This document shows positions 21,110 to 56,035 of a DNA stretch of 64,000 nt, one piece after another. Made by a program: the position numbers and the translations under genes. Every line of letters starts with the position of its first letter. The stretch's first letter is position 1. The notes below the pieces were generated by a model, which had not been told where the DNA came from, searched no databases, and worked only from the letters and a program-made list of their open reading frames with translations. Source of the DNA: Lunularia cruciata (taxonomy: Eukaryota; Streptophyta; Marchantiopsida; Lunulariales; Lunulariaceae); NCBI GenBank assembly GCA_948567375.1, contig OX419762.1:11414001-11478000 (forward strand). Reading direction: 5' to 3'.

Positions 21110-24100
21110 AGATAGGGTGGACTCACATATGACAAGGCAAGGCAAGTCGCTAAGCAACAAGAGAAATGATTTGGGTGATATCAAATGGACCTATCCACTT
21201 AGGAACAAGTTTATGGACTTGGGTATCAAGTGGGAAGGGTAGGTTACTAGAAAAAAACATGACATTCTCACCAAGTTGAAAAGAAAATCATGACAATGTT
21301 GGTCCGCATATTATTTCTGATGATTTTGAGCAACAAGGAGATGAGATTTGAGATGGTGGTCAAGAAGGTGGAAGTATGAGGGACATGAGATGGAAGCAGT
21401 GCAAGAAAGGAATCTGGAACAAGCGGGTCTAAGGAAGAAGGGAGAGAATCCAATACTTGTATGTTTGGAATTATTGTAGGCAAACTAAATAACTACAAGA
21501 CACTTGTCCCAATTGGTATGGTGAACATGGACAAAGGCACAAAGTATATCTTCCAAGGTGTAATTTGCACATTTAGTTTGTCTACTTGTTTGAGGATGAT
21601 AGGCCATGGCCAAAATAAGCTTGGTGCCGAGTATTTGGAAGAGTGGTTTTGGTGAAACAAGAGTCACGGTCGGAGATGAGTACATGAGGCATCCCATAAT
21701 ACTTGAAGACATTGTCAAAGTAGATTTGGACCAATGTTAGAGCATCCATTGTATCAAAGGTTGGTGCCAAATGTATGTGCTTACTAAGCTTATCCACACA
21801 AACCAAGATTGTTTTGTGACCTTGCTTTGTTTATGAGCAAAGATGTGATGAGATCTAAGCTCACATGTTTCCATTGAGCAGATGGGATGGGAAGTGGTTG
21901 AAAGAGTCCACTTGGTTTTTGGTTGCTAGCCTTGTTGTGTTGGCAGCTCTCACAAGATGGGACAAAATCTTGAATATCTTATGCCATGTTGGACCCAACA
22001 CCATTGGCATTATAGGGTACCCAAGGTCTTGTCTACAGCCATGTGATCAGCAATTGGTAAGTCATGGGTTTCTTGAAGGCACACAAATCATAGTTCTAGA
22101 AACATAGATAGTTGGAACATAGATCTAGTTCTCCTAGAATAGAAGGCCTTCTTTGAAGGAGAAGACATTGTATTCCTTATTATGTGCAATAAGATGACCT
22201 TTTACCATCTAAAAGAAGGGATCTTGTTGTAAAGTGGTCCTAATTATGATTTGGACCTTGGAGTTGATTAACACTATTGTAATTGTTACTATGATGAGAG
22301 GAAGAGACTTCAAATCAGGTTGAATTGATAGGGCATCAGGGTCTTGATGACATGGAACCTATGGGTTTGTACTCAATTTTGAGGTCAAAAAATTATAGTT
22401 GTTCTTCCTATTGATGATATTGACTCTTCATGTGTTCCAAATGTAATGTCTACAACAAGAGCTTGTGATTGGTTTGCATGATCACTTGTTTCTCCAAGAG
22501 ATAATGCCTCCATACCTTAATGGCATATACTATTGCTAGTTGTTCCCAATCACAAGCAAAGTAATTCCTTTTGGTGGTCTTTAGTTGGCAAGACACAAAG
22601 GCAATGGGATGTAACCCATATAGGAATCCCTACTGCAACACAACTCCAATTGCAAAGTTAGAAGCATCAAAATCAACCACACAAGGTAGTTGAGGGTCAT
22701 ATAGTTGAAGAATAAGTCTTGAAGATACTATATGTTTCAGCTTTTGGAATGCTTCTTTTTGCTTGGCGGTCCATTGAAAGCTCAAGTTCTTCTCCAAGAG
22801 ATTGGTCAATCGTGTGGCCACATGAGCATAGTAGTGAAAGAACCATCAATAAAAACTTACCATTAAATGCCCATACTTTTGTAGCATCACTTGGAGTAGG
22901 CCAATTAGTAGTGGCCTTGATTTTCTCCTTTTCCATCTTGATCCCCTTTGATGAGATCTTGTGGCCCAAGAAGGTAACTTCCTTTTGCTAAAAGATACGC
23001 TTTGACTTCTTGCAGTAAACCTTTCACTAATGTAGTCGTCTTAGGACTTCTCACATGTGATTTGTGTGTTTTTCTTATCTTGTTAAAGATTAAAATATCA
23101 TCTAAGAACACCACCACATACCAATCTAATAGCCCATCCAAGACCCAATGCATCTGATCCATGAAGATTGTTGGAGCATTAGTGAGCCCAAAAGGTAGAA
23201 CTCTCTACTCAAAATACCCATAATTTGTGCAAAAGGTAATCTTTTGCACATCCTCTCTATCAATGGGAATCTACCAATAGCCATTTTGAATATCCAACTT
23301 GGAGAAAGATCATGCTCCACTCAATTGATCAAGCAAGTCATCAATTCAAAGGCAAGGAATATGTATTCTTCACTATTTGTTTGTTAAGACCACAGTAATC
23401 AATACAAAACCAAAGTACTCCATTCTTCTTTGGCACAAATAGTATTGGTGCTCCCCTAGGAGATGTGCTATATTGTATGAAATCCTTCTCCAATGATTTT
23501 CTCAATGTTGTTTGAAGCTCATCCAACTCCTTTGGTGAGAGCAGATAGATTGGTCTACTCACTTGAGTACTTCATGGCAATAACTCAATCTTGAAGGGCA
23601 TACCCCAATCTGAGGGTAATCCCGTTGGCATATCATCTAAAAAAACATCTAAAAACTCTTGAACTATTTGATCAAGCATTGCTTGATGAGAATTTTGGCC
23701 CTCCTTAGATTCTCCATATGTAGCAGCTTGATCCACACTCCAAAAATAGATTTATCTTCCTCCAAAGCTTCTTATGGTTTTTTTACTAACAAACTTCCCA
23801 TCTTGGGGCTTATCTTCTTTCAAAGCTTACTCTATGGCTGCTTTTTTGACAAACTTTCTATCTTCGGATTGATTATTCTTAGGTGTCTTACTCAAAGGTG
23901 CTAAACAACCTAATTGGAAATTTCTACCTTGGTGTTGTACTTGAATTTATCATTGGGTCCAATCAAATTGAACCTTGTGATGTTCAAGCCAAGACAAACC
24001 TAGAATGACATCATAGTGTAGAGGTGCCACTAGAAACCTCATACACTCCACATACTCCTTCCTAATCTTGAATATAACAAGATATGAAGCATGAAATGAA

Positions 24101-25918: not shown

Positions 25919-27552
25919 AATATGGTTTGGAAGTTGCTAAATTTGAAGTGAAGTAATACTAATGTTGTTCTTTATTATTTCTTATTAAACCTCTTGGGTT
26001 GGAGCCATTCCCAAAAGAATCACCATTTGTGGCACATTGTGGCAAAAAGAAAATCCAAAGTCACTATCATATAAGTTAAGTTCCATCTAATTCTTGAAGG
26101 TTATGATCCATTCAATCCAAAAAAGCTACTTCACTATGAAGAATACAGCTTCAAATGTGTTCTATTATTCCAAAAATGCATAGCTATAGAGGTTCTCTCC
26201 ATTAATGATGAATCTTTGGTTTTTTGATTCCATGGTACTTTCAACACTACAACTCACTTAAAACCCATCCAAGCATTGCCCCATTCTTTCAAAATTACCA
26301 AGGATACCAAACCTCAGCCACAAGTACTAGTGGTCACACACACTCAGCTACTTGAGTTCCTAATATAAAGTTCCTTCCCAACTACTCACCAAAGAATCAT
26401 TACCAATACTCAAAATTCAACAAAAGCAACAAAGAGCTCTTTCTCTTTCACTTTACTTTCTTACATGGATTAAATGAATATTTCTTGAAATCTCTTGAAT
26501 AGCTTTTTCCACTCCTAATCTAAGAAATCTACTAGTTGCAAAATTGCAAAGATCTATCAAAATTGCACTTCTTGCATCTGGACTATATGATTAGGATCTT
26601 ATTATCCTATCTTATCCCAATCTAATGATCTATACATTGTAAATTTACTATCATATGTCTTAAAAAAGTGTTTGAATTCTCTTCGAAGAAACCCTATCTG
26701 GTTCTCTTTGGACTCCTACTCCAAATATTACCAAATTAATAATAAATGTACAATTGCAAAGAATCTTCATTCAATGAAAGATTCTTCATACTATTCTATT
26801 GCAAAGAACTACCTTCACCTACATCTTTTCTAAGTAGATTTTCAATTCTCTCCTTGTAATCCATGATTTCTAGTACTATTGTATCACAACTTTCCTTTAG
26901 CTTCCTATTTGTATGTTCTCTTAACTTCAAGGATACTTGCTCTACTTTGGATCATCATATACTTGAGCATTGAGTCTAAGCTTGAAGTTTCAACTCAAAC
27001 ATATTTTCCTTGGTAAGTTGTATATTGCAGCTTCCTTACGGAGTTCTAACATTGAATCTCTAATAGTTTCTAACTTCAAAGTAATCCTAACTATTCCCTC
27101 CTTTGAATGATTATAAATTCTATTAATTTCATTGGTAATGGCATCCATCATCTTGGCTTTTACACCGACTATGTTATCTTTCTCCTCATGCAATTCTTTT
27201 TGCAAGGCATCAAGTTGGATTGCTACTTCTTTGCAATATTTAGCCATATGCAATTCCAAAGTAACAATGATTACCTTTTTGTTTGCTAATTATCCCTTGA
27301 TGTGTATCTTTTCCTCATCTTTGTTTGTAGTTGTTCTTTGTAGTCTTGTTGCCTTTGATTTCCTTCGTTCCAAAGAGCTTATTATTCTCCTTGCATTCTT
27401 TGGACATCTTCTTCATAAGTTTTATATTCTTCAATCAGTGAGGTATTGTGTCTCTTGACATTATGGTTCTCTTGTATCAAGGCATTCACTTTTATGCATT
27501 TGTCTTTGATCTCACTCTTCTTATGTCTCCTTGCAATTTGGTCATCTTTTCT
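25919..27552 (-). pseudogene. coiled-coil coding relic, left part, interrupted by the gypsy insertion
   Basis: On the minus strand, 26990-27259 reads an open, charged, helix-rich stretch (QLDALQKELHEEKDNIVG) with heptad character. Related codon-like sequence continues up to the edge of the 27.5-37.3 kb gypsy element. Sequence of similar composition and the same strand resumes beyond that element at about 37330-38750. I infer that one minus-strand coding region, probably an old element protein, was split by the insertion. The family is not recognised. Confidence 0.35.
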
Positions 27553-27830
27553 GTCATGCTATTTGTAGTTCCGCATCTAGATGCTCGGACATTGGAGTTT
27601 CCAGTGATAGTAGTTAGAGTTATTCTAGCAGTTTCTTAGAGATTACTTTCCAACGGTCAGATTTCATATTTGGTGTACTGACTTCACGATGGGGCCCAAC
27701 GTCACTTTGCACCGTTTGCACCGTCAAGTGTGCCGTCAGCGGGACCCTTAGGGTTTCAGTGCTAGCTCGAGTCCAGGGGGTAAAGTTTCAAAGTGAGCTC
27801 CAGAGAACTCACTTCTTTGATGTTGAGCCT
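27553..27830 (+). repeat. LTR-related segment at the left end of the gypsy element
   Basis: It begins TGTCATGCTATTTGTAG and aligns with 36957-37182 at the other end over nearly its whole length, apart from a block of about 45 bases present only here (around 27695-27740). The right-hand copy has about 108 further bases before this point, so the left LTR seems to lack its first part. No methionine-tRNA primer site is seen after it. Confidence 0.65.
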
Positions 27831-28584
27831 TCGAGTTCTTGGCTATGGTGGACAGAGGCCGGCAAGCGTCACCTGGATTCTCTATGCTTGAGTGGGTATG
27901 GCTTGACTGCAATCAGTGCCCAGTTGTTGGCAGTTTATAGAGTGACAGATCAAGTACTGATCTGAGTTGAGTTGAGAGTAGTAAGCAATCTGATTACATC
28001 AAAGAAGTGAAGTCAAGGGGAAATCGGGTGCAGGAACTTTGAGTGTTGGTGGTATCTCCAAGCTCGGTGGATCGTTGATAGCTCAATTCAAGTTCTGTGT
28101 TTCCCAAGTGTGCAAACGCTCAATCGATTGATGCAGATTTGGCAATTAGGCAGACGGTGTGTGGAAGTGCTGGCCAAATTTTGAGCAAAGAAGGAGCAAA
28201 TTTTGAGCATTGGTTGTGATTTTGAGCTCAAGAGGTGAAGGCAAGACCAATTTGTTGCGAGTTGGGCTCAGAAAGTCAAATTGAAGGTGGAGTTGGGAAG
28301 CTCTTCTCATGAATTTGTGATTTGGAAAAACTTGTGTTGTCAATTTGGCTTGAGTGGAAAGTTAGCGGAGGATTTGGCAAACAACCATCTTTAGGGTTTA
28401 CGTCAGATTTTGGTTGGGATTTACATCAGATTTTGGCCAGATTTTGGCTAGACTTCAAGGCATAGGGCTGTGGGCTATGAGAGGCTACAAAGGCCTAGAA
28501 GGGCCAGCTTGCTGGCATGAGGCCTAGCTAGTTTAGAGTAGATCTTGGTTATTGGTTGGCAAAATCTGCCTTTCCTACTTAGAT

Positions 28585-28656
28585 TGTGCGCAATAGGGTT
28601 TGACCCCTAGATCTCTTGTTTCTAGACTAGTGCCCTAGCCAACTGGTCCACCCTCA
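28585..28656 (-). repeat. tRNA-derived, SINE-like head in the gypsy leader
   Basis: On the minus strand this 72-base stretch has an A-box-like TGGACCAGTTGG (28639-28650) and a B-box-like GGTCAAACCC (28596-28605) at the spacing of a tRNA. Between them is a CACTAGTCTAGAAAC stretch that resembles the middle of plant tRNA-related SINEs. It lies antisense in the leader between the left LTR and gag. It may be a SINE insertion or a chance match; the acceptor stem is not convincing. Confidence 0.4.
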
Positions 28657-29305
28657 CTTGTTGTCCTAGTGACTGTGCCACTGTTATCTATACACATGTA
28701 GCTTTGGCTAGGAGAGGCAGTTTGATCCCATTCTTGGTGATCTTGGTAGCTTAAGATCTAGATACGAACTTCTCTTATGTCAAATGCCAAATGGAAGTAG
28801 AGTCAGTCCCATGTTGTGTTATGAGATGGAGGATTTTCATTTAGATTTCTTGTCATTGGACCTCCTCCATTCTCTGCTTCCTATTTGTGCACCACGTTTG
28901 TGTGAGGTGCCTTGACTTTTGAGCGTTGGTGCTCTTGTGTGCTCTCGGTGGTGAGGATGGAGTGATGAGCAGTCAGACTACCTTTGTGTCTCTCCTGTGA
29001 GGCAAGAAGTGATGACCTGCAGACCGTAAGAGTGCGTGTTATGATGGCAGGTTACAGGTTGCCCTTTCCCCTAATGTAGTTATCTCGGTTAGAGTTACAT
29101 TAGTGGGTGGTGCTTAGTTGGTGTTGGCACGTGGTGGTGTTGGCACTAGGTGGGGTACTTGCGGTCGCAATTGGTGGTTCGGGTTTGTTGTTGTGGTTAC
29201 TTTGTCACGACGGAGTTCTTTGGAGATTTTAGAGGAGTTAGCCCTGCAATACGTAGTGGGTTTACTCGGAGTGGTGCTCGGTATTAACTTGTATCTCAGG
29301 TCCCA

Positions 29306-30500
29306 GTGAGGGAGGAGATTGACTCTGAGTTGGAGTTCGACACACGAGCTGATTCAGTTGAGAGTGCACTTGGTGTGTCTGCACCATTGTTGTGGGACAT
29401 GGACAAGATTTATGGGGCCTCCAAAGGCCCTAGGCGTTACTCTGGTACAGCGGGTACCATTGAGTTGGATGACTTCATCCAGGAGTTTGATAGTTGGTGT
29501 GATCTGCAGTAGATGCGGAACCCGACTTTGTTCACACCCTTCATGGCATGGAAGGGGTTGTTTCAGCACTTGGAGGGTCCACTGATGGACGACTACCATG
29601 AGTTCAGGAGAGCTCATTTGGAAGAGACTGAGTTATGGAGACAGTATTGGTCTCCACACTATGTCTCCATCACTTCAGGCTTGGTGGCCAGGAGTAGATC
29701 GGCTGTACCTATGATTTCTAGCTCGCGTAGTGTGGGTGGAGCTAGTGGAGGTGCACTAGCTGGAGATAGTGCTACTACAATTGGAGGTACCACTACAGGA
29801 GGTGGTGTGGTACCGGGGTTTAACCCTATGGTGGAGTTCTTCTTGTGTTTGAGGCAGAATTACTAGGGAGTGCGGACTGACAAGCTGAGGAGCTTGCAGG
29901 AGTTCCAGCAGAAGGTTGGAGAGAGCCTACGCAAGGCATACACTCGCATGAGGCATCTGATCAATTTCACTCAGGGAGTTACTGAGGCCCAGGCAGTCCA
30001 GTTTTGGTATGGGATACTGGACAAGGAATTACGACGTAGAGTTTGTGATGCTATGTTGTTGCAGGCTACTTCGCCCACTTTGGCAGTAGTCTTTGGTTTG
30101 GCTGAACGTATTGAGCTCAATATGGTGGAGGAGAGAGTTGTGATATTTGGATTTGGTAGGGAGACCTCATCCACAGTTGTGACTTCTTCTAGAGTGCAGC
30201 AGAGTGCACCACGCCCAGTTGGTTTTCAAGGACAGGGTGGACAACCCCAATCGTATGGAGCAAATGGAGGGCCTAGTGGAGTTAGACTCTTACCCTCATT
30301 TTTGGGTCAGCAGCAGCCAATGAGTGGTGGTGTTGCTTGTTGGACTTGTGGTGGACCTCACCATAGGAGAGAGTGTACTCAAGGCAGCGGACCTGATACC
30401 TCGGGTGCATCACAACCAGCATAGAGGCAGTGTGAGCATTGCCATAGATTTGGTCACACTAGTGATTGGTGTTTTGACCTACACCCGGAGTTACGGAATG
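29306..30500 (+). mobile_element. gag region of the gypsy element
   Basis: Several plus-strand stretches read a retrotransposon gag: a helical capsid-like part (LRKAYTRMRHLINFTQG, FWYGILDKELRRRVCD) and then two zinc knuckles of the CCHC type, CWTCGGPHHRREC near 30338-30378 and CEHCHRFGHTSDWC near 30430-30472. A Gly/Arg-rich stretch (GGRGGRGGGRG) follows near 30540. Gag packages the element RNA. The region is broken in this copy. Confidence 0.8.
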
Positions 30501-31359
30501 GTAGGGCTGCTATGGTAGGTAGTAGAGGAGCTCTAGTTCATGGAGGACGAGGTGGTAGAGGTGGTGGTAGAGGATCTACACCTAGTAGGGGTGCAGTACC
30601 TGCCCTTACTTTTGACACAACTATGGCTACTCGGATTGAGCAGTTGGAGCAGAGATTGGCTAATATGGCTATTGCTCAAAGGAGATCAGATTTGGGTGCT
30701 GAGGCTTCCACCTCATATGCTTGTGATAGAGATGCTTTGGACTTCATGTGCAGAGCAGCACAGGTGGATGTAACTATAGTAGTGACTAGGAGTGCAGTAC
30801 GTGCTCCAGAGCCTAGAAGAGCATCAGTGGAGTTGGACCCACAGAAAGGAGAGGTTGGGAGACAGGTCAAACTTCCCCAGTCTTTCACACTATCTGAGGC
30901 ATTACAGACGACATCCATGGTTCCTAGACGTCCCTGTGTAGGTGTGGTAGGTGGTGATGGAGTACATGATGGACTACCTACTAGTCAGCCACCTGCTACT
31001 ACATAGACTGAGTCTAGCATGATGTTGGGGGCGGCTCAGCTGATTATGCGGCATCCTTTGTTTTCAGCCAGTGACATGTTTACATTGGGAGTTGACCCAG
31101 CCCCAGTGTTCTGGTTGGCTGCCACGTTGTGTGAGAGTAGAGATGGTGCAGTTCCTACTACTAGAGTAGAGGTGGTTGGTAGTGGAGCTGACTTAGTTGA
31201 GAAGCATGGGATCCGTTCAGCGACCAGTGGTTTATGGTAGGCAGCAGCGGCTAGATTGGAGGAGTTGCCAGCTAGACTAGCCTTTGAGAGAGCGCGGTTT
31301 ACACCTGGTGTTGTCCTATTGGATAACCAGAGGGGGATTTTTTGTTTGGTGGGACCTTC

Positions 31360-31700
31360 AGGGAAGGTCTATACACCACAGAGAGTCTTGTTAGACTCTG
31401 GTGCATAGCCCCTTATGTTGGGGAAGGCTGCAGTTGTCGGTCTGGAGTTACGGAAGACCAATGTGGAGAGGTGTCCATTTCAGACCCAAACATCTCTAGG
31501 TGGTGGTTTGACACAGTACATCACACGTGGAGAGCTTGTTGTCCAGATTCAGCCTGGTCATCCGACTGATAGCTCGGTGGTGAGAGCTCAGGCTATTGCG
31601 ACGATAGCTGAGTCATATGATGTGCTAGTTGGGGGAGCAGTGTTATACCCCATGGGTTTCAACATTGACTATTGGGAGGAGATAGCCTCTTATAGACCTG
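31360..31700 (+). mobile_element. aspartic protease region of the gypsy element
   Basis: The plus strand reads VLLDSGA near 31387-31407, the active-site motif of retropepsins, followed by the expected hydrophobic pattern and a conserved-looking YDVLVGGAVL near 31618-31650. The protease would release the mature gag and pol parts. It is immediately followed by the methyltransferase, not by reverse transcriptase. Confidence 0.75.
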
Positions 31701-32094
31701 GTTGGCAGTCTAGTGAGGGACGGGTATGTTGCCTACCAGTACGCTTCAGTAGTGGCAGTCTTGGCTCACTACAGTCCGAGACCATGGCAGCATCAATTTT
31801 AGCTTTCAATGGTGCAGTTACTTGGCCTGGTGACTTTTTGGAGGGGAATGCCCATGCCGAGGATACTCCAGTACCATAGGAGATCACTCGGCTTTGGAGT
31901 ACGAGTGGGATTGTTCCATCCACCTTGGATGTTCCATTGTGGAGTTCAGAAGAGGCATTGCAGCAGCATGCAGATCAGTTGGTGCAGCAGGCTTGGAGTG
32001 GAGCCTCCGTACCATCAGGAGGTGAGTGTGAGGATGAGCCTCCAGAGGTGATTGCTTTGACACCTCTGGATACCACACTCATTGCTTGGTAGTA

Positions 32095-33070
32095 TCCAAT
32101 AGAGGGGATATGCCTATTGGAGTTGTTTGGTGGGATTAGCACCGGACTAGCTACGGTGTTATAGGCAGGTATACGAGTACAGAAGTACTTGTATGTAGAG
32201 AGAGATGAGACTGCTAGGCGAGTCTCTCTACATCATGTAGCACACTTGGCCTATCGGTATCCAGAGTTATTACCGATGTCAACAATCAAAGGTTACCAGA
32301 AGGCCCTACCAGGAGACATTTCCTTATTGGGGGCGCATGACCTAGAGAGACATGGGCCTATTCACTTGGTGATTTTTGGATGGCCATGTCAAGGACATAC
32401 ACATGCAGGCCGCGGTTTGGGTCTTCAGGATCCTCGTTCTGGTGTGTTTTGGGAGATGTTACAGATACTACGACATCTCCAAGTTCATCAGTTTATTTCT
32501 CCAGCTTACCTTTTGGAGAATGTTCCTTTGATGGGTGATTCTTGCACTAGAGTAGTGACGAGTACACATCAGGTCCATTCTTGGATGGGACTTGCTATAT
32601 TTTTAGATGCAGCCAGAGTGAGATCACGGGCTCATCGTCTTTGTCGTTGGTGGACAAACCTCTTACCCAGAGAGGTTCTACAATGTGATTATGATGGGAT
32701 TCAACGACTTGACCACATCCTTGTTGATGATATCTTGGATGTTGGGCGTCAGTCTCAGACAATGGTAGTGGCTGATAGGTCACCTATGGTAATGGTGAAC
32801 CTAGTTGGATAGCCTAGAGCCACATTTCCCACACTCATGAGTTTCCCAGGCTCTCATGCTTTTCGAGAGGGAGGACCTGGACTTGTTTGGGACTCACAGT
32901 TACAGCAGTTGGTGGAGCCCAATGCTGATGAGAGAGAGCGGGCGATGGGTTTTCGCACCGGTATTACCGCTGTTCCAGCAGTGTTAGAGGCATCCAAGCG
33001 TCAAGTGTTAGGTCAGGCTATGGAACTAAACTGTTTGACCTGGATTGTGAGCCTTGGCTTGGTAGAGTAG
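32095..33070 (+). mobile_element. DNMT3-like cytosine-5 DNA methyltransferase domain inside the gypsy element
   Basis: The plus strand shows the landmarks of a C5 cytosine methyltransferase in order. Motif I, ELFGGISTG, binds the methyl donor (about 32119-32147), with YVERD about 20 residues later. The catalytic Pro-Cys is in GWPCQGH (about 32379-32400). Motif VI is LLENVP (about 32509-32530). VRSRAHR lies near 32615-32640. The C-terminal motifs IX and X are RERAMGFRTG (about 32935-32964) and GQAMELNCLTW (about 33011-33043). Spacing, the AHR region and the C-terminal ERxxGF to LGQ block resemble the DNMT3 de novo methylase branch more than DNMT1/MET1. Its place between protease and reverse transcriptase, on the same strand, makes it part of the element. 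This copy is broken and presumed inactive. Confidence 0.85.
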
Positions 33071-33164
33071 CGTAGGATGTGCTTGATAGGCATCACCACT
33101 CGGACACTTGTGACCCATGTGCCTATCGAGATGATTTAGGCACATGCTGGGGGTGATGGACCGA

Positions 33165-33537
33165 GTGGACATGGTATTCTTGGGACACATCTAGTAGCTA
33201 CTAGGGAGAGTGGTCTACTTGGAGTCCATCCAAGTGAGCATGGGCTACTTGGATTACACCCTTGGTCCACATGGGATGCAGCTAGAGGACGTGTGGAGCT
33301 TGCAGCCAGAGTGGAGGGAGTTTTTCAGATTGCTTACCACTTAGATTGCTGTGGACATTGTATTCTTGGGACACATCCAGTAGCTAGTTTTTCAGAGTGG
33401 TCTACTTGGAGTCCATCCAGGTGAGCGTGGGCTACTTGGATTACACCCTTGGTCCACATGGGATGCAACCAGAGGACGTGTGGAGCTTGCAGCCAGAGTG
33501 GAGGGAGTTTTTCACACAGAGGTTGGGACCTCTAGTG
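33165..33537 (+). repeat. tandem duplication of about 187 bp inside the gypsy element
   Basis: The unit starting GTGGACATGGTATTCTTGGG at 33165 recurs from 33351. Both copies carry GTCTACTTGGAGTCCATCC and CACATGGGATGCA, and the match extends to about 33537. It lies between the methyltransferase and the reverse transcriptase. Confidence 0.85.
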
Positions 33538-33689
33538 GTCGGGAGCATGACACTATTGCTCCCAAGGGCCCAGTGTAGCAGCCAGTCAGTACGTCTTCCA
33601 CTCCTACTACAGTTACGAAGGATACTTGGGAGCCAGATCTTGGACCCAAGCTTACTAGAGAGGAAAGACGGAGGGTTTGGAGGTTCTTG

Positions 33690-34690
33690 AGGAGTCACAC
33701 AAGTTGTTTTGCCTTTAGTATGAAGGATTTGGATGCTCTGAAGGGACCTGGTATACGGATTGAACTGACTAGCGACACACCAATTTTCCAACGTCCTTAT
33801 CGATATAGTGAGATGGAGAGGATATTAATTCAGAGCCAGAGTAGTGACCTTTTGAGGCTAGTTTGGTGGAGATTTCACATGGAGAGTATGCATCAGAGAC
33901 AGTATGCCAGCCAAGAAGGATATGCATGGCAACTATACAGATAGGCGGATGTGTGGAGATACCATCCTATCAACCGATAGAACAGGGCTGATTGGTATGC
34001 CATGCCTACATTGGAGGAGATTTTTGATGCAATTGGGCATGCAAAGGTCTTCAGTACTTTGGATCTTCGAGCGGGATATCATCAATTGCCGATCAAGGAG
34101 GAGGATAAGTCCAAGACAACATTTTGGGCTATTGATCCTCATGGCAAGGATGTGTTATATCAGTGAAGGTTCTTACCATTTGGGTTGAAGAATGCTCCTA
34201 CTGAGTTCCAGAGGGTCATGGATAGGATCCTAGCTGGATTGGATTTTGCTCGGTGCTATATTAATGACATTTTGGTTTATAGCACTACTGTGGAGGAGCA
34301 TGAGAGACAGTTGTTGGAGGTGTTTGAGAGGTTGAGATCTCATGGACTCAAATTACATCCTGGGAAGTGTAGGTTCTTCCATGAGCAAGTTGATGATTTG
34401 GGTCACACTATCTACCCTGGAGGACTTAGTGTCCAGCAGACCAAGGTGGAGGCTATTGCACGTATTCCTTGGCCTACGGATGTGAGCAGAGTGCGAGCAT
34501 TCCTTGGGTTGGCAAACTTCTATTGCCGCTATGTTAGAGGATTTAGTGCCATTGCCAAGGCCTTGACGAAGCTGACCAAGCTTACACATGAGTGGTGTTG
34601 GGGAGATGAGCAAGAGAGAGCTTTTGTAGAGCTCAAGGAGAGGTTGACATCTGCTCCTATTTTGAGGAGACCAATCAGGAGATGACCATT
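33690..34690 (+). mobile_element. reverse transcriptase region of the gypsy element
   Basis: Landmarks in order are FQRPYRYS near 33787, a leucine-Arg-Ala-Gly-Tyr-His-like stretch near 34060-34085, LPFGLKNAPTEFQRVMD near 34167-34220, and the catalytic-site block YINDILVYS near 34258-34284. FLGLANFYCRYV follows near 34500-34535 and leads into the connection segment. Order and spacing are those of Ty3/gypsy reverse transcriptases. The region is broken in this copy. Confidence 0.9.
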
Positions 34691-34990
34691 TCAGGTTCAC
34701 ACTGATTGGAGTATGTTGGGGCTTGGAGCAGTGCTCACCCAGCATGATGATGAGGAGAAGGAGTTTGTGGTGGCCTATGCTAGTCGCTCCAACAAGTCAG
34801 CGGAGGCAAAGTATAGTTCATATGAGGGAGAGTGCTTGGTAGCAGTTTGGGCAGAAGCACATTTTTGATGTTACCTATTTGGTAACCCCTTCACTCTCAT
34901 CACTGATCATCAGCCACTGAAGTGGTTGATGGAGTCCGACAAGCTTTCAAGGAAGCTTGCATGATGGGCTCTGATTTTCTAGGAGTATGA
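34690..34990 (+). mobile_element. RNase H region of the gypsy element
   Basis: The plus strand reads [13 protein letters not shown] near 34700 and [13 protein letters not shown] near 34815-34855, then FTLITDHQPLKWL near 34890-34928. These are the landmarks of gypsy RNase H, which removes the RNA strand during reverse transcription. Confidence 0.88.
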
Positions 34991-35419
34991 TTTCACGGTT
35001 GTTCATAGACCTGGAGTGGTAAACCGTGATGCAGATGGGTTGAGTAGAAACCCATGTCCCAGCCAACAGGATCAGACCGGAGCACGTTGGCAGATGAGGA
35101 GATGGTCCTAGGTTGACATGCATCGGCCTTTTTGTGTATATTTGCAAAGGCTTTGGTTGTATCTCTCTCAGCGCATACAGGATGAGTTATTGAGGTCACA
35201 GATCCAGAGAGTGAAGATATTGGTACAGTTCAGCGAGACATTCATGATGATGTCTTGGTAATGGACTATCTTTGCATTGGTGTTGTGGGTGGCATAGTTG
35301 GGGCCAAGGAGAGAGATCGTGTTCTTTAGCAAGCCAGATGGTTCAGATTGGAGGGTAGACACCTTTTGCATGTATGGGAGGATGGTAGAGTGTGAGTAGT
35401 ACCACTTCCATCACAGAGA

Positions 35420-36330
35420 CCACAATTGGTCCATCATGCTCATGAGGAGCTAGGACATTTTGGAGTAAGCGTACATATAGCTTACTCCAGAGTCATTATT
35501 GGTGGCGCGGTATGCAGACCACGGTACAGCAGTTTGTGGCCAGATGTGTGGTTTGTGACCGAGTTAGAGTATCATTCAATGCTCATACGCCATAGTTACA
35601 CCCATTACCTATCATGGGATTGGGTTACCATTGGAGTTTAAACTTCACCGAACCTTTACCGCTGATTGTGAGACATCATCGGTATGTTTTGGTGATGGTG
35701 GAGCACTTCTCCAAGTGGATTGAGTTGGTGGCACTTCCTGACAAGTCTAGTGAAGGGACAGTTTACTCGTTCTTGGATCGAGTTCTTAGTCATTTTGGTG
35801 CACCAGCTGAGGTTTTGACTGATCAGGGTACAGAGTTCTTGAGGGAGTTTCAGGTCTTGTGTGACAAGGCTTTGATTGATCATCGTACTACATCCCAAGA
35901 TCACCCTAAGGCAGATGGCTTAGCAGAGAGAGTGGTTCAGACGGTGAAGAGAGGATTGCAAAAGTATGGTTTGTAGAGAGGCCACTTGGGAGATTGGGAT
36001 CTCCAATTACCTTGGTTGGCCATGGGCTATCGGTTCAGCCGGCAAGCCTCCTTAGCATCCTTCTCTCCATAATTTTTACTCTATGGACAAGATCCAGATT
36101 TACCTACAGCCATTCGTCAAGATGTTACTGTAGTTTTGGACTTGGATAACCCCGATGTATGGATGAGCACATGTTCTCGATGGGCAAAGATCTTTTGGAG
36201 AGTGATGCCGATGGACTTTGAGAACTTGGCGATTGCTCAGCATAGAGATACTTTACGCTATGCTACCATTTGGGGAGGAGGTTATAGACCCTCGATCCGT
36301 CGATTTCATCCTGGAAACTATGTATATCTA
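35420..36330 (+). mobile_element. integrase region of the gypsy element
   Basis: A zinc-binding start is suggested by HHAHEELGHFG near 35428-35460. The catalytic core follows, with VMVEHFSKWIELVALP (near 35693-35740), VLTDQGTEF and HPKADGLAERVVQTVKRGL (to about 35970), giving the Asp, Asp and Glu positions. A C-terminal part with RFHPGNYVYL near 36301-36330 resembles the end of gypsy integrases. No chromodomain is seen. Confidence 0.88.
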
Positions 36331-36525
36331 TAATAGACAGCACCAACAACACTTGATGTTTCTACAGGCCGCACTATCTTGAGAGTGCGTGAGGTTTTGC
36401 CATCTAGAGTCCTTGTGTTAGAAGGACGTGATGGTTTTGTTTAGAAGGATCATGTGTGCAATTGTCCGCCATGCCACCTCCCAAACATTGATGGTACTAT
36501 GGACCCAAGCTTGGCACTTGTACGT

Positions 36526-36675
36526 GCAGGCTTGAGGTGTATGTTATGTGGCTCTTCTGGTGGAGCTGCTACTATATTAGTGTGTGATAGCTGTTCGAGA
36601 GGATGGCATATGGCATGTATGACTCCTCCCCTCACGGTGGTTCCTCATGGACAGTGGTTATGTCCTAGATGTACT
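36526..36675 (+). mobile_element. PHD finger downstream of the integrase
   Basis: Within one open stretch (36454-36678) the eight zinc ligands of a PHD finger are present in C4HC3 order: Cys-x2-Cys in CMLCGSS, Cys-x2-Cys in CDSC, His and Cys in WHMAC, and Cys-x2-Cys in WLCPRC just before the stop. The conserved Trp is next to the His, and a second Trp precedes the last Cys pair. PHD fingers usually read histone H3 tails. Its position matches that of the chromodomain in chromoviruses, so a role in choosing integration sites is a fair inference. This domain is unbroken in the window. Confidence 0.88.
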
Positions 36676-36833
36676 TGACCTATAGCTAGTTCATTCTTTA
36701 TATGGTATAGATTGCAGACATGCGACTAACTATGGGGCTCCATAGCACCCGGCCTCCTGATCTTTGCCCATTAGAGGGTATACAATATACTTAGAGTAGA
36801 TGGCTATCTGGAGTTAGAGGGGCCTAACCACCA

Positions 36834-36848
36834 ACTAGGGGGGGCGAT
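36834..36848 (+). promoter_or_regulatory. purine tract before the 3' LTR
   Basis: A G-rich tract ending in about seven G's (36838-36844) and then CGAT directly precedes TGTGGCACTTTAGAG, the apparent start of the 3' LTR. It fits a polypurine tract, the primer for plus-strand synthesis. The tract is short, so the exact border is uncertain. Confidence 0.5.
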
Positions 36849-37325
36849 TGTGGCACTTTAGAGTCTATGTATGACTTATGTATGAGTTGTGCTTCTATAG
36901 TGTATGATGTTGACAGCGATGTATGTTATGTAGCGATGTATATACGCACGACTGCTGTCATGCCATTTGTAGTGCCGCATCTAGATGCTCAGACACTGGA
37001 GTTCCAGTGATAGTAGTTAGAGTTATTTCAGCAGTTTCGTAGAGACTACTTTCCGACGGTCAGATTTCGTGTTCGGGGTACTGACTTCACCATCAGCGGG
37101 ACCGTTAGGGTTTCAGTGCTAGCTCAAGTCCAGGGGGTATAGTTTCAAAGTGAGCTCCAGAGAGCTCACTTCTCTGATGTTGCTTACTACTCTCAACTCA
37201 GATTGCTTCTTTGATGTCGGCACTTTAGAGTCTATGTATGACTTATGTGTGAGTTGTGTTTCTATAGTGTATGATGTTGACAGCGATGTATGTTGTGTAG
37301 CGACACACGCACTATACACACGACA
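36849..37325 (+). repeat. 3' LTR sequence with a second partial copy
   Basis: It starts TGTGGCACTTTAGAGTC. Its first part of about 108 bases is followed by the segment shared with the left end (36957-37182). A piece matching the inverse of 27960-28012 comes next, and then a second copy of the first part from 37219. The layout is therefore part A, part B, inverted scrap, part A again. Rearranged or nested LTR ends could explain this. Confidence 0.6.
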
Positions 37326-38750
37326 TTTCCTTCTCTTTGAACTTGTTTGTGTGTACTCTTTACTAATGAAGTGTAGTCCACCACATTGGGCTATTCCTCT
37401 CTATATTGAGGAAAAATCATCTACAAGAACCTACGAGGTAGTCCTATTGAGTTTATTATAAAATTTTCCCCATCCACTATATGTGGTGTTGCAAAGAAAC
37501 TATGTACTCCTTCTTCTTCTTGATGTAGTGTAGGTACGGTCTCCTTTGCTTTGTCTTCCACATCCACCTAGTCCTCATCTTGAACTTCTTGTCTAAACTT
37601 GAGCTAAACTTGCAAGTTCTTCTAGTCAAAGGTCTTCTTGTTCTTTATTGCTACTTCTGCTTCTTCTTCTTCTTCTTCTTTTCTTTGTACTTCCTTTGGA
37701 AGAACTAATTGCACTTCCTCCTAATAGTCTTTTTTCTCCTCCAAACTCAACTCAATGCACTACATGGTAAGTTTATCTTCTACAACATTATGTTTGGTTT
37801 CTTCCTCTGTTTTCTTAACTTTCCATTCCTTCTTCATCAAAAAAAACGTCTATTGCTTGAGAATTCTTCCTTGCTCTCTTTGGTGGTCTTTTTATATCCT
37901 CATTGCTAGAGGGTTGCTTCTTCTTCTTGGAGATGGCTACCACTATCAAATCCTTCATTTTTATGAATTCTCTTGATGAGAGAAACTTGGCATCTATATC
38001 TTAGTAATTCTTGATTGTGGAGGGTCTTTCAGGTTGAGCCAAGAAGTACTCCAATATGAAGTGACTGCCTAATTTTCTCTTCTCATCTTTGCTCAGCAAA
38101 TTCATCTCCATGTAGAAGTGAATTGAAAATAGAGCCAAGTAAGTAGCTCTACCTTCCTCCTCAATTTCCTTAATCATGATGCAGGCATGTTGATGGAACA
38201 TAAAAGCCTAATTGATAAGTTCTTCCCTAAATTCTCAAAGAACATTGCCAGATTGATATTTAGGTAGATAGTTCATTTTGGGTAAATTAGTCTATTAATA
38301 GACTAAATGAGATATTTATGATCAAGGTCTTTGTAAGAATGAACCTTACACCCGCTACTCTTTGACCTCTTCTTTGCAAAGGTATTCTTGATAATTGCAT
38401 TGAATTTCATCTCCATCTTCCCAAATTTGGTGTCTAACACCATCGCCCTTATAGTTCTTGAATCTACCTTGAGTACTATCCTCTAGTACTCCTCTATCCA
38501 ATTGTAAGGATCCCACAAAGATTCCTAGTTGCTCTCTCACTTCTTCTTTGCATCTCTTGAATGAATCCAAAGAACCCAATTCCAAATTCTAGAGTAGAAA
38601 CATCAAATGCTTACTTTGAGTAGATCACTCCTAACTCTCATTGCTCATTTTTTGATTCTTGGAGATTGAAGGATCACCTCGTGGATCTTCCTTATAGTTG
38701 TCTTTGCTTTGGCCATATTGCTAACAAGTGTTTTTCTTTGAAAAAGAGAC
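37326..38750 (-). pseudogene. coding relic, right part, beyond the gypsy insertion
   Basis: On the minus strand, charged open stretches (for example EEVREQLGIFVGSL near 38500-38540) and a Lys/Glu-rich repeat of GAA codons at about 37650-37685 continue the look of the relic on the left of the gypsy element. A start-like ATGGCCAAAGCAAAG is at about 38717 (minus). The family is not recognised. An old element ORF split by the gypsy insertion is the simplest reading. Confidence 0.35.
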
Positions 38751-54900: not shown

Positions 54901-56035
54901 AATATAGACCTCGCAAGCGTAGATCATAAATATGAATTGCACAATCTTATTTTAGATCAAAGAAATCGCTAGAAACAAGCTAATAAAATAGAATATCTAC
55001 TTGATCGCAATAACCTAGAGCTTCATTCCAACAGCGATGATGCTATATGTTTTCATGTGGATAAACTTTGCTCAACCTCATGCACAATGCACTATAGAAA
55101 TATAATTCATAAAAAATGTCATATATCAACTCTAGAGAGTTTATTTATTTCTTCGTTTCAATAGGCAATTGTGAGTACACATAAAGAAAGTCATACACAA
55201 TCTCTAGAGTACTATAATTAGTCAAAACAGAATCATTATACTTACTCAACCTACATTACTCTAGCACCATAGAATCCTGATTATATATACAAATTCTTCC
55301 GCTTATAGTTCAATAGGTTAAAGCAATAAAAGTGAACTCTTTAAAGCTCCAACTCAAGGTATACCTTTTCTTGCAAAGACTAGAAGTCTAGCTTTAAGGG
55401 CACACACAGCACAGCAGAAATGGCAGTTCTAATAATGCCTAAATATACAAATGCTACTACTAAGTAATTATTAATGACTACTAACACAAATACCATCATC
55501 AAATGGAGCATCTTAGCAAACTAACTAAGGCGTTACACTTGATGAGATAATTATCATACATATATACATAGGCACACAACATACATTGTTATCAACATAT
55601 ATCATTATAAACATCATACATTGTAAAAGCACAACTCATATAGAAAGCTATACACAAACTCTAAAGCACCACAATTATTCCCTCTAATGGGTCTTAGTGT
55701 GCCATCTGGTTCCTCTAACTTTAAATAGCCATCTACTATGTGTATATCATAATCCCTATTTTACTTGACTGTTAATTGTAAATGAAATTTGTATTGAAAG
55801 AAGGACTAACTAGCTAAACATCAAGTATAACAAAGACATAACCACTACCCTTGAGGAAACATCACAAGGAGAGGAGTCAAACTTAATGGTTGGTTTCAAT
55901 TTTAGTTTTTTCAATGCTTGTAAATATCCATAAAATATTTTACAATGAATGGAGTTTTATAGCATTAGACTATTGGAATAAAGATGAAGAATATCATACA
56001 CTTGAACCCTTGCTTTGGTGGTGGAATTTTTCACA
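54901..56035. other. AT-rich repeat-like DNA
   Basis: No gene or element domain is recognised. Many short A/T-rich direct words (CATACA, ATCATTATAAACAT) recur, and no frame is long enough to interpret. Confidence 0.4.

Follow-up and report, generated by a model that had tools for sequence, protein, structure and literature searches.

A bryophyte variant of the methyltransferase-bearing Ty3/gypsy-type retrotransposons in the genome of Lunularia cruciata

Described systems and the Lunularia locus

Retrotransposons with a DNMT3-type cytosine methyltransferase have been described from a charophyte and from dinoflagellates. According to the main text of de Mendoza et al. 2018 (PMC5890265), KnitGypsy-Dnmt3 of Klebsormidium nitens combines long terminal repeat (LTR) gypsy domains with a DNMT3-related enzyme in its coding region, while SymbioDIRS-Dnmt3 of dinoflagellates joins an enzyme of this type to split repeats and a tyrosine recombinase. 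The charophyte case is treated there as an acquisition within the K. nitens lineage, and the passage on this subject in a 2025 article (PMC12344493), citing the 2018 paper, refers for streptophytes and dinoflagellates to DNMT3 that forms part of retrotransposon structures. Here, 64,000 nt of the liverwort Lunularia cruciata were analysed (GenBank assembly GCA_948567375.1, contig OX419762.1, positions 11,414,001–11,478,000 of the forward strand; this whole stretch is the window below). Positions 27552–37325 of the window were confirmed as a single decayed Ty3/gypsy-type element with a C5-methyltransferase between the protease and the reverse transcriptase (RT), and we regard this identification as nearly certain. 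The kind is already published (KnitGypsy-Dnmt3), and the Lunularia element is a bryophyte variant of that kind.

The likeness to KnitGypsy-Dnmt3, as that element is described in the 2018 text, extends to the LTR gypsy domains, the enzyme in the coding region, a DIRS-like repeat arrangement and purifying selection on the enzyme; it is one of domains and repeats, by description only, and no named K. nitens protein was among the matches listed. The host differs (a land plant with at least 110 copies, as against K. nitens), and so does the placing of the enzyme, assigned to the ‘Pol polyprotein ORF’ of KnitGypsy-Dnmt3 and found in Lunularia at the end of the first open reading frame (ORF1), before a predicted leaky TAG. 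The Lunularia element also carries a PHD finger, a word absent from the main text of PMC5890265. With SymbioDIRS-Dnmt3 it shares the DNMT3-type enzyme and the split repeats but, in contrast to the tyrosine recombinase of that element, it encodes a DDE integrase and is flanked by 4-bp target duplications.

Pfam searches of the window gave, all on the + strand, PF00145 in the piece 32165–32809 (31.6 bits, cut-off 22), RVT_1 within 34167–34682, rve within 35596–35973 and a PHD finger within 36445–36675. Segment-wise comparison with the proteins of two other copies placed gag, protease, methyltransferase, RT, RNase H, integrase and PHD finger collinearly over 29405–36675 with 80–100% identity. The claim of a first-pass annotation, made from the sequence of this locus, that a methyltransferase lies between retropepsin and RT on one strand was confirmed by these two analyses. 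The DNMT3-like methyltransferase itself (32093–33079, + strand; called from Pfam, copy comparison, tree and fold) was 89% identical to other copies, with three stops and its GWPCQGH motif at 32378. Terminal sequences TGTCA and CGACA, together with TTTC on either flank (27548–27551 and 37326–37329), indicate one insertion and exclude a chance juxtaposition. Stops were seen in most segments, the PHD finger having none, along with several frame changes; this copy is dead, and its earlier description as a fossil was correct.

RT and RNase H followed by a DDE integrase, all 3′ of gag and a retropepsin-like region, identify the element as Ty3/gypsy, and the best solved match of the RT was the Ty3 RT 4ol8 (233 bits). 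The integrase is of the DDE type (rve, Integrase_H2C2), and the tyrosine recombinase that defines DIRS elements was not found. On the + strand, gag (29405–30811, three stops) holds a single zinc knuckle of the form CX2CX4HX4C, besides another motif that resembles a knuckle but is irregular. The retropepsin region (31313–31864, one stop) was called from its LLDSGA motif and from a weak Asp_protease_2 match in the related protein P0017; no Pfam protease match was obtained for the protease of this genome’s own copy. Downstream of the enzyme lie the ORF1 tail (33083–33575), RT and RNase H (33904–35000) and the integrase (35381–35964), the last two frameshifted and interrupted by stops, and the PHD finger (36505–36675) at the C-terminus of the integrase frame, a domain that had been missed earlier. 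The tail of the window copy includes 121-bp tandem copies, 97% identical and spaced 187 bp (33207–33327 and 33394–33514). Elsewhere in the window, both on the − strand, are pieces of another gypsy RT/RNase H (22462–23306; 26–37% identity to the methyltransferase-bearing family) and a diverged relic of repeat A with adjoining sequence (55581–55747; 70–78% identity).

Copies, reading frames and split repeats

Searching the genome (566 Mb in 74 contigs) with the methyltransferase of one copy yielded 14,316 candidates, of which 110 were scored; each of these was a near-full-length copy, aligned over no fewer than 373 of 374 residues and at least 96% identical, so that at least 110 such copies are present, and 68 of those scored, as counted from the listing, had a stop-free methyltransferase stretch. 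With PF00145, 123 of 2,161 candidates were scored, all above the cut-off; copy counts are lower bounds. Twenty copies, chosen mostly for long open frames, were fetched. The enzyme was present in all 20; on its strand, ungapped stretches of protease and RT were found in 20 and 19 copies, respectively, and the PHD stretch was ungapped and stop-free in every copy. This recurrence, together with the enzyme tree below, rules out a host or bacterial gene sitting at the locus by chance. Four of eight loci cut from the PF00145 search look like host genes, namely two exon-split DNMT3 genes (L029 and L030), a DRM-like locus (L002) and a locus that is CMT-like by eye (L003).

Better-preserved copies have two frames. 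ORF1 comprises gag, protease and methyltransferase (1428 aa in one copy) and ORF2 comprises RT, RNase H, integrase and PHD finger (1037 aa in another); the two share one frame and are divided by a TAG, at 33576–33578 (+ strand) in the window, where CAGCCA follows it. TAG with the hexamer CARYYA was kept in 21 of 21 sequences (17 CAGCCA, three CAGCTA and one CAGTCA). In tobacco mosaic virus and others, a stop followed by CARYYA is read through more often, as stated in the portion of PMC4132726 that treats it, and the motif here points to readthrough at the TAG, by which the enzyme would be made with Gag and in excess of RT. Eight related proteins from Marchantia and environmental records end 87–141 aa past the enzyme, which fits the same split as judged from proteins alone. 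The earlier placing of the enzyme inside pol thus needs amending: it does lie between protease and RT, but as the last domain of ORF1 (gag-pro), upstream of the in-frame TAG and outside the RT frame.

The terminal repeats are present, as had been noticed, but do not form a simple LTR pair. In the four copies whose left flank was read, the left end was repeat B (440–454 bp) without repeat A, and the window agrees (27552–27996, + strand, starting TGTCA; 91–92% identical to repeat B of another copy, 449 bp long there). On the right side, two copies of A were found in 18 of 20 copies, mostly with B in between; in the window these are an internal A (36849–36955), an internal B (36956–37182; shortened, by comparison with repeat B of another copy) and a right terminal A ending in CGACA (37216–37325), all on the + strand. 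Repeat pairs were detected in 17 of 20 copies. The layout is B-coding-A-B-A, split as in DIRS elements, so that B is common to both ends, yet the outermost repeat is B on the left and A on the right. Target duplications of 4 bp matched in L011, L014, L018 and the window and failed in L021 (four of five), in keeping with duplication by an integrase.

A polypurine-like tract stands directly ahead of the first A, represented in the window by AGGGGGGGCGAT (36837–36848, + strand). Of 19 A|B joints found, 13 contained the palindrome GACAGCTGTC; in L022, outside that count, the joint was not palindromic. We read the conventional LTR as A.GC.B, the integrated form being probably a cyclic permutation that arose when integrase opened a circle where A meets B. 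L021 has an extra CATCA at its B|A joint, identical to the first five bases 3′ of the left B, as would be expected of a circle joint retaining primer-site bases. In copies showing it, ATCAGAG follows the left B, which we take to resemble part of an initiator-tRNA primer site, the expected TGG being missing.

Affinities of the enzyme and origin of the association

The element enzyme has the DNMT3 catalytic fold, and its designation as DNMT3-like was borne out by both sequence and fold. Among the non-element enzymes tried, DNMT3A and DNMT3B scored highest and host DNMT3 ranked roughly equal to the top-scoring phage enzymes. The DNMT3A match was collinear (E 2e-10) and far stronger than that of DRM2 (E 0.009), on which grounds a DRM identity was rejected; no CMT or MET1 was named among 54 matches up to E 1. 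Element enzymes and host or animal DNMT3 fell on opposite sides of a 100/100 branch, and the enzyme is not an orthologue of host DNMT3, whose genes share its fold but form a separate, exon-split clade. The tree called for in the first-pass annotation, drawn here without CMT or MET1, sets element enzymes apart from host DNMT3. The interpretation offered in that annotation was borne out in part. A phage or bacterial origin was rejected as well, the phage methyltransferases among the matches listed having 25–36% identity and six of them grouping with DNMT3 and apart from the element clade. In an earlier tree a mycobacteriophage enzyme on a long branch joined the element side; the final enzyme tree left out this sequence and host DRM. 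IMG/VR scans using the enzyme and the RT found no relative.

Relatives in protein collections came from Marchantia polymorpha, Marchantia paleacea, Riccia sorocarpa, Calypogeia fissa and three Sphagnum species, and further ones from Closterium, Haematococcus, Monoraphidium, Scenedesmus and many environmental proteins, with no tracheophyte named among the matches listed. Most of those from Marchantia, Calypogeia, Sphagnum, Riccia and Closterium are predicted gene models, and the bryophyte and Closterium sequences bear source names such as hypothetical, unnamed, reverse transcriptase or methyltransferase. Among 270 enzyme proteins, the enzyme stood between RT and integrase (RNase H/integrase) in 101 and before RT in 14; it came after gag in 13 pieces with RT outside the piece, after RT in eight with integrase outside, and directly before integrase in 15 with RT outside, the other 119 being enzyme-only pieces. 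The order of the Lunularia element, with the enzyme before RT, was recovered in Marchantia (P0007, P0012), Sphagnum (P0022) and Closterium (P0266, P0267). Of the 101 proteins with the enzyme after RNase H, 95 matched a PHD finger. Chlorophyte gypsy polyproteins (Haematococcus, Monoraphidium, Scenedesmus) have the same enzyme clade, RT group and C-terminal PHD finger as the Lunularia element but, unlike it, carry the enzyme between RNase H and integrase. One gypsy polyprotein with a PHD finger, P0187, is filed under a Minisyncoccia bacterium metagenome-assembled genome and is probably eukaryotic contamination.

All 32 sampled retroelement enzymes, including those of Marchantia, Calypogeia, Sphagnum, Closterium and chlorophytes, formed one clade (100/100). 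Within it the after-RNase H form was a clade (94/86) nested in the before-RT form and set within better-supported forks; nine tips were labelled before-RT either without the domain order being seen (P0054, P0062, P0066, P0071) or from gag-enzyme pieces (P0001, P0002, P0013, P0017, P0018), P0049 was labelled after-RNase H from a piece lacking RT, and P0268 and P0048 were excluded by a length cut. The RT tree recovered the after-RNase H clade too (100/99) and united the carriers against Ty3 and five other gypsies from the Lunularia genome, which include three near-copies (99/98); one intended outgroup of this tree, L050, belongs to the methyltransferase-bearing family, which voids the approximately unbiased test. 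With two outgroups the carriers were united at 92/96. The simplest reading suggested by these trees is one capture and one relocation, and the enzyme tree suggests an old rather than a local capture. A possible but doubtful alternative is that the enzyme was captured independently at least twice from a single unsampled DNMT3-like donor, once ahead of RT and once after RNase H. Two insertion points do exist, the donor is not identified, the support of the after-RNase H clade in the enzyme tree is just 94/86, and the PHD finger is not present in all relatives with the enzyme before RT. Against this alternative stand the single enzyme clade, with one form nested in the other by well-supported forks, and the union of carriers in the RT tree against six other gypsies; no host or viral DNMT3-like gene branching between the two layouts was recognised among the matches listed.

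Proposed role of the enzyme and competing explanations

In a comparison with one Marchantia protein, conservation within ORF1 was highest in the enzyme (74% identity, against 62% for gag, 58% for protease, 47–51% for linkers and 37% for the tail). Ratios of non-synonymous to synonymous polymorphism (pN/pS) among stop-free copies, whose number is given in brackets, were 0.47 for the enzyme (10), 0.25 for RT (13), 0.27 for gag (3), 0.28 for PHD (20), 0.42 for protease (19) and 0.74 for integrase (9). Repeat pairs diverged by 0.2–7.8% in 17 copies, which lean young through being picked mostly for open frames; with 8.4%, the pair in the window was the most divergent of all 18. Differences of the C-to-T type per cytosine over the 18 repeat pairs reached 10.2% at CG, 4.5% at CHG and 1.7% at CHH, suggesting that copies have been methylated. 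The CG/CHH and CHG/CHH ratios in the family were 6.2 and 4.8 for RT, 3.2 and 3.4 for methyltransferase and 9.5 and 6.8 for integrase.

We propose that a bryophyte Ty3/gypsy-type lineage acquired in the distant past, and has since retained, a DNMT3-like cytosine methyltransferase. Most ribosomes would halt at the TAG and yield Gag-Pro-methyltransferase, while a minority would read on and add RT-RNase H-integrase-PHD, so that the enzyme would be produced at the level of Gag and packaged in the particle. There it would methylate the double-stranded complementary DNA (cDNA) of the element, probably at CG, before integration. Its position at Gag level, its long retention and a catalytic motif still intact in 18 of 20 copies suggest such a packaged enzyme acting on cDNA, and the element may in this way methylate itself; whether methylation of cDNA is the main role of the enzyme we regard as evenly balanced. 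The PHD finger, closest to those of chromatin proteins such as CHD4, KMT2C/D and KDM5B, may target chromatin and assist the integrase in its choice. The cDNA would probably circularise, and a cut by integrase at the palindromic A|B joint within the LTR would give B-coding-A-B-A. A new copy made from pre-methylated cDNA might already count as ‘self’ or be silent, escaping sensing or sparing the host harm.

On the most far-reaching reading, a gypsy lineage would have captured the enzyme before the chlorophyte/streptophyte split (or early in one of the two, with later spread) and brought it along into land plants, its place shifting a single time from ahead of RT to the interval between RNase H and integrase; in bryophytes, a Gag-level polyprotein before a leaky stop would supply particles holding a cDNA methylase and a histone-reading integrase that inserts permuted DNA derived from circles. 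We put this reading forward tentatively. Several observations weigh against the proposal of a packaged, Gag-level enzyme and a chromatin-choosing integrase. The PHD finger occurs in one of the 14 proteins with the enzyme before RT (P0265), several of which end early, and P0047, P0050 and P0268 extend well beyond the integrase core without it, while the Lunularia copies have it. P0258, P0265 and the Closterium protein P0266 show one predicted frame from enzyme to RT without a stop, and the support for readthrough is weakened since C-to-T change can interconvert CCA, CTA and TCA without selection. One of the five target-duplication tests, that of L021, found none, and the primer site was not identified. 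The enzyme has a higher pN/pS than RT, gag and PHD, that is, weaker constraint inside the genome. A control gypsy family from the Lunularia genome that is not known to encode the enzyme (three copies of one family, 1.1 kb each, three pairs) gave similar ratios (CG/CHH 6.0, CHG/CHH 4.9); general host methylation therefore explains the C-to-T footprint, which does not tell the methylating agent and was dropped as a sign of self-methylation.

Other roles for the enzyme were weighed against action on cDNA. It is unlikely that it works mainly in trans on chromatin, aiding host silencing of this and other elements as a self-restraint that keeps the family tolerable: the many copies and their CG/CHG footprint, by which they appear methylated after insertion, and a PHD finger near the histone readers CHD4, KDM5B, PHF21A and BAZ2 would suit such a role, but the footprint is no stronger than in the control family and the host has DNMT3 genes of its own besides DRM-like and CMT-like loci. 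Retention of the domain for nucleic-acid binding or particle assembly, with catalysis dispensable, seems more unlikely still. It would agree with an enzyme of top identity in ORF1 yet relaxed pN/pS within the genome, and with the inactivity in yeast of the K. nitens enzyme, a result called inconclusive in the text of PMC5890265; against it, 18 of 20 copies retain an intact GWPCQGH and 19 of 20 the ENV motif, and across 34 relatives conservation of the W, C, Q, E, N, H and R positions is complete or no lower than 90%. Morozov et al. 2019 (PMC6338049) proposed that methylases borne by retrotransposons serve as a defence against competing DNA such as viruses and other mobile DNA, but the relevant part of that article held such transposons absent from land plants such as tracheophytes, and we consider this role very improbable here.

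Judged by the titles and abstract openings of the literature searched, in which bryophyte members are unnamed (the supplements of PMC12344493 may list such cases), what is new as far as shown comprises the bryophyte branch, the siting of the enzyme ahead of a conserved leaky-type stop, the presence of a PHD finger, split repeats flanked by target duplications, and the evidence for a single association extending across green plants. The enzyme and RT trees argue that this association is older than an acquisition within the K. nitens lineage. A DDE integrase combined with DIRS-like repeats bears on the origin of such repeats. The methylome of Marchantia polymorpha has been studied (PMC5784723, as indicated in its opening), and with relatives of the element present in that species, what the element gains from methylating DNA is directly testable. 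In Lunularia, a parasite carries the silencing chemistry of its host, in a land plant and at high copy, and the partnership of retrotransposon and methyltransferase looks old and widespread in green plants, among liverworts, peat mosses and green algae.
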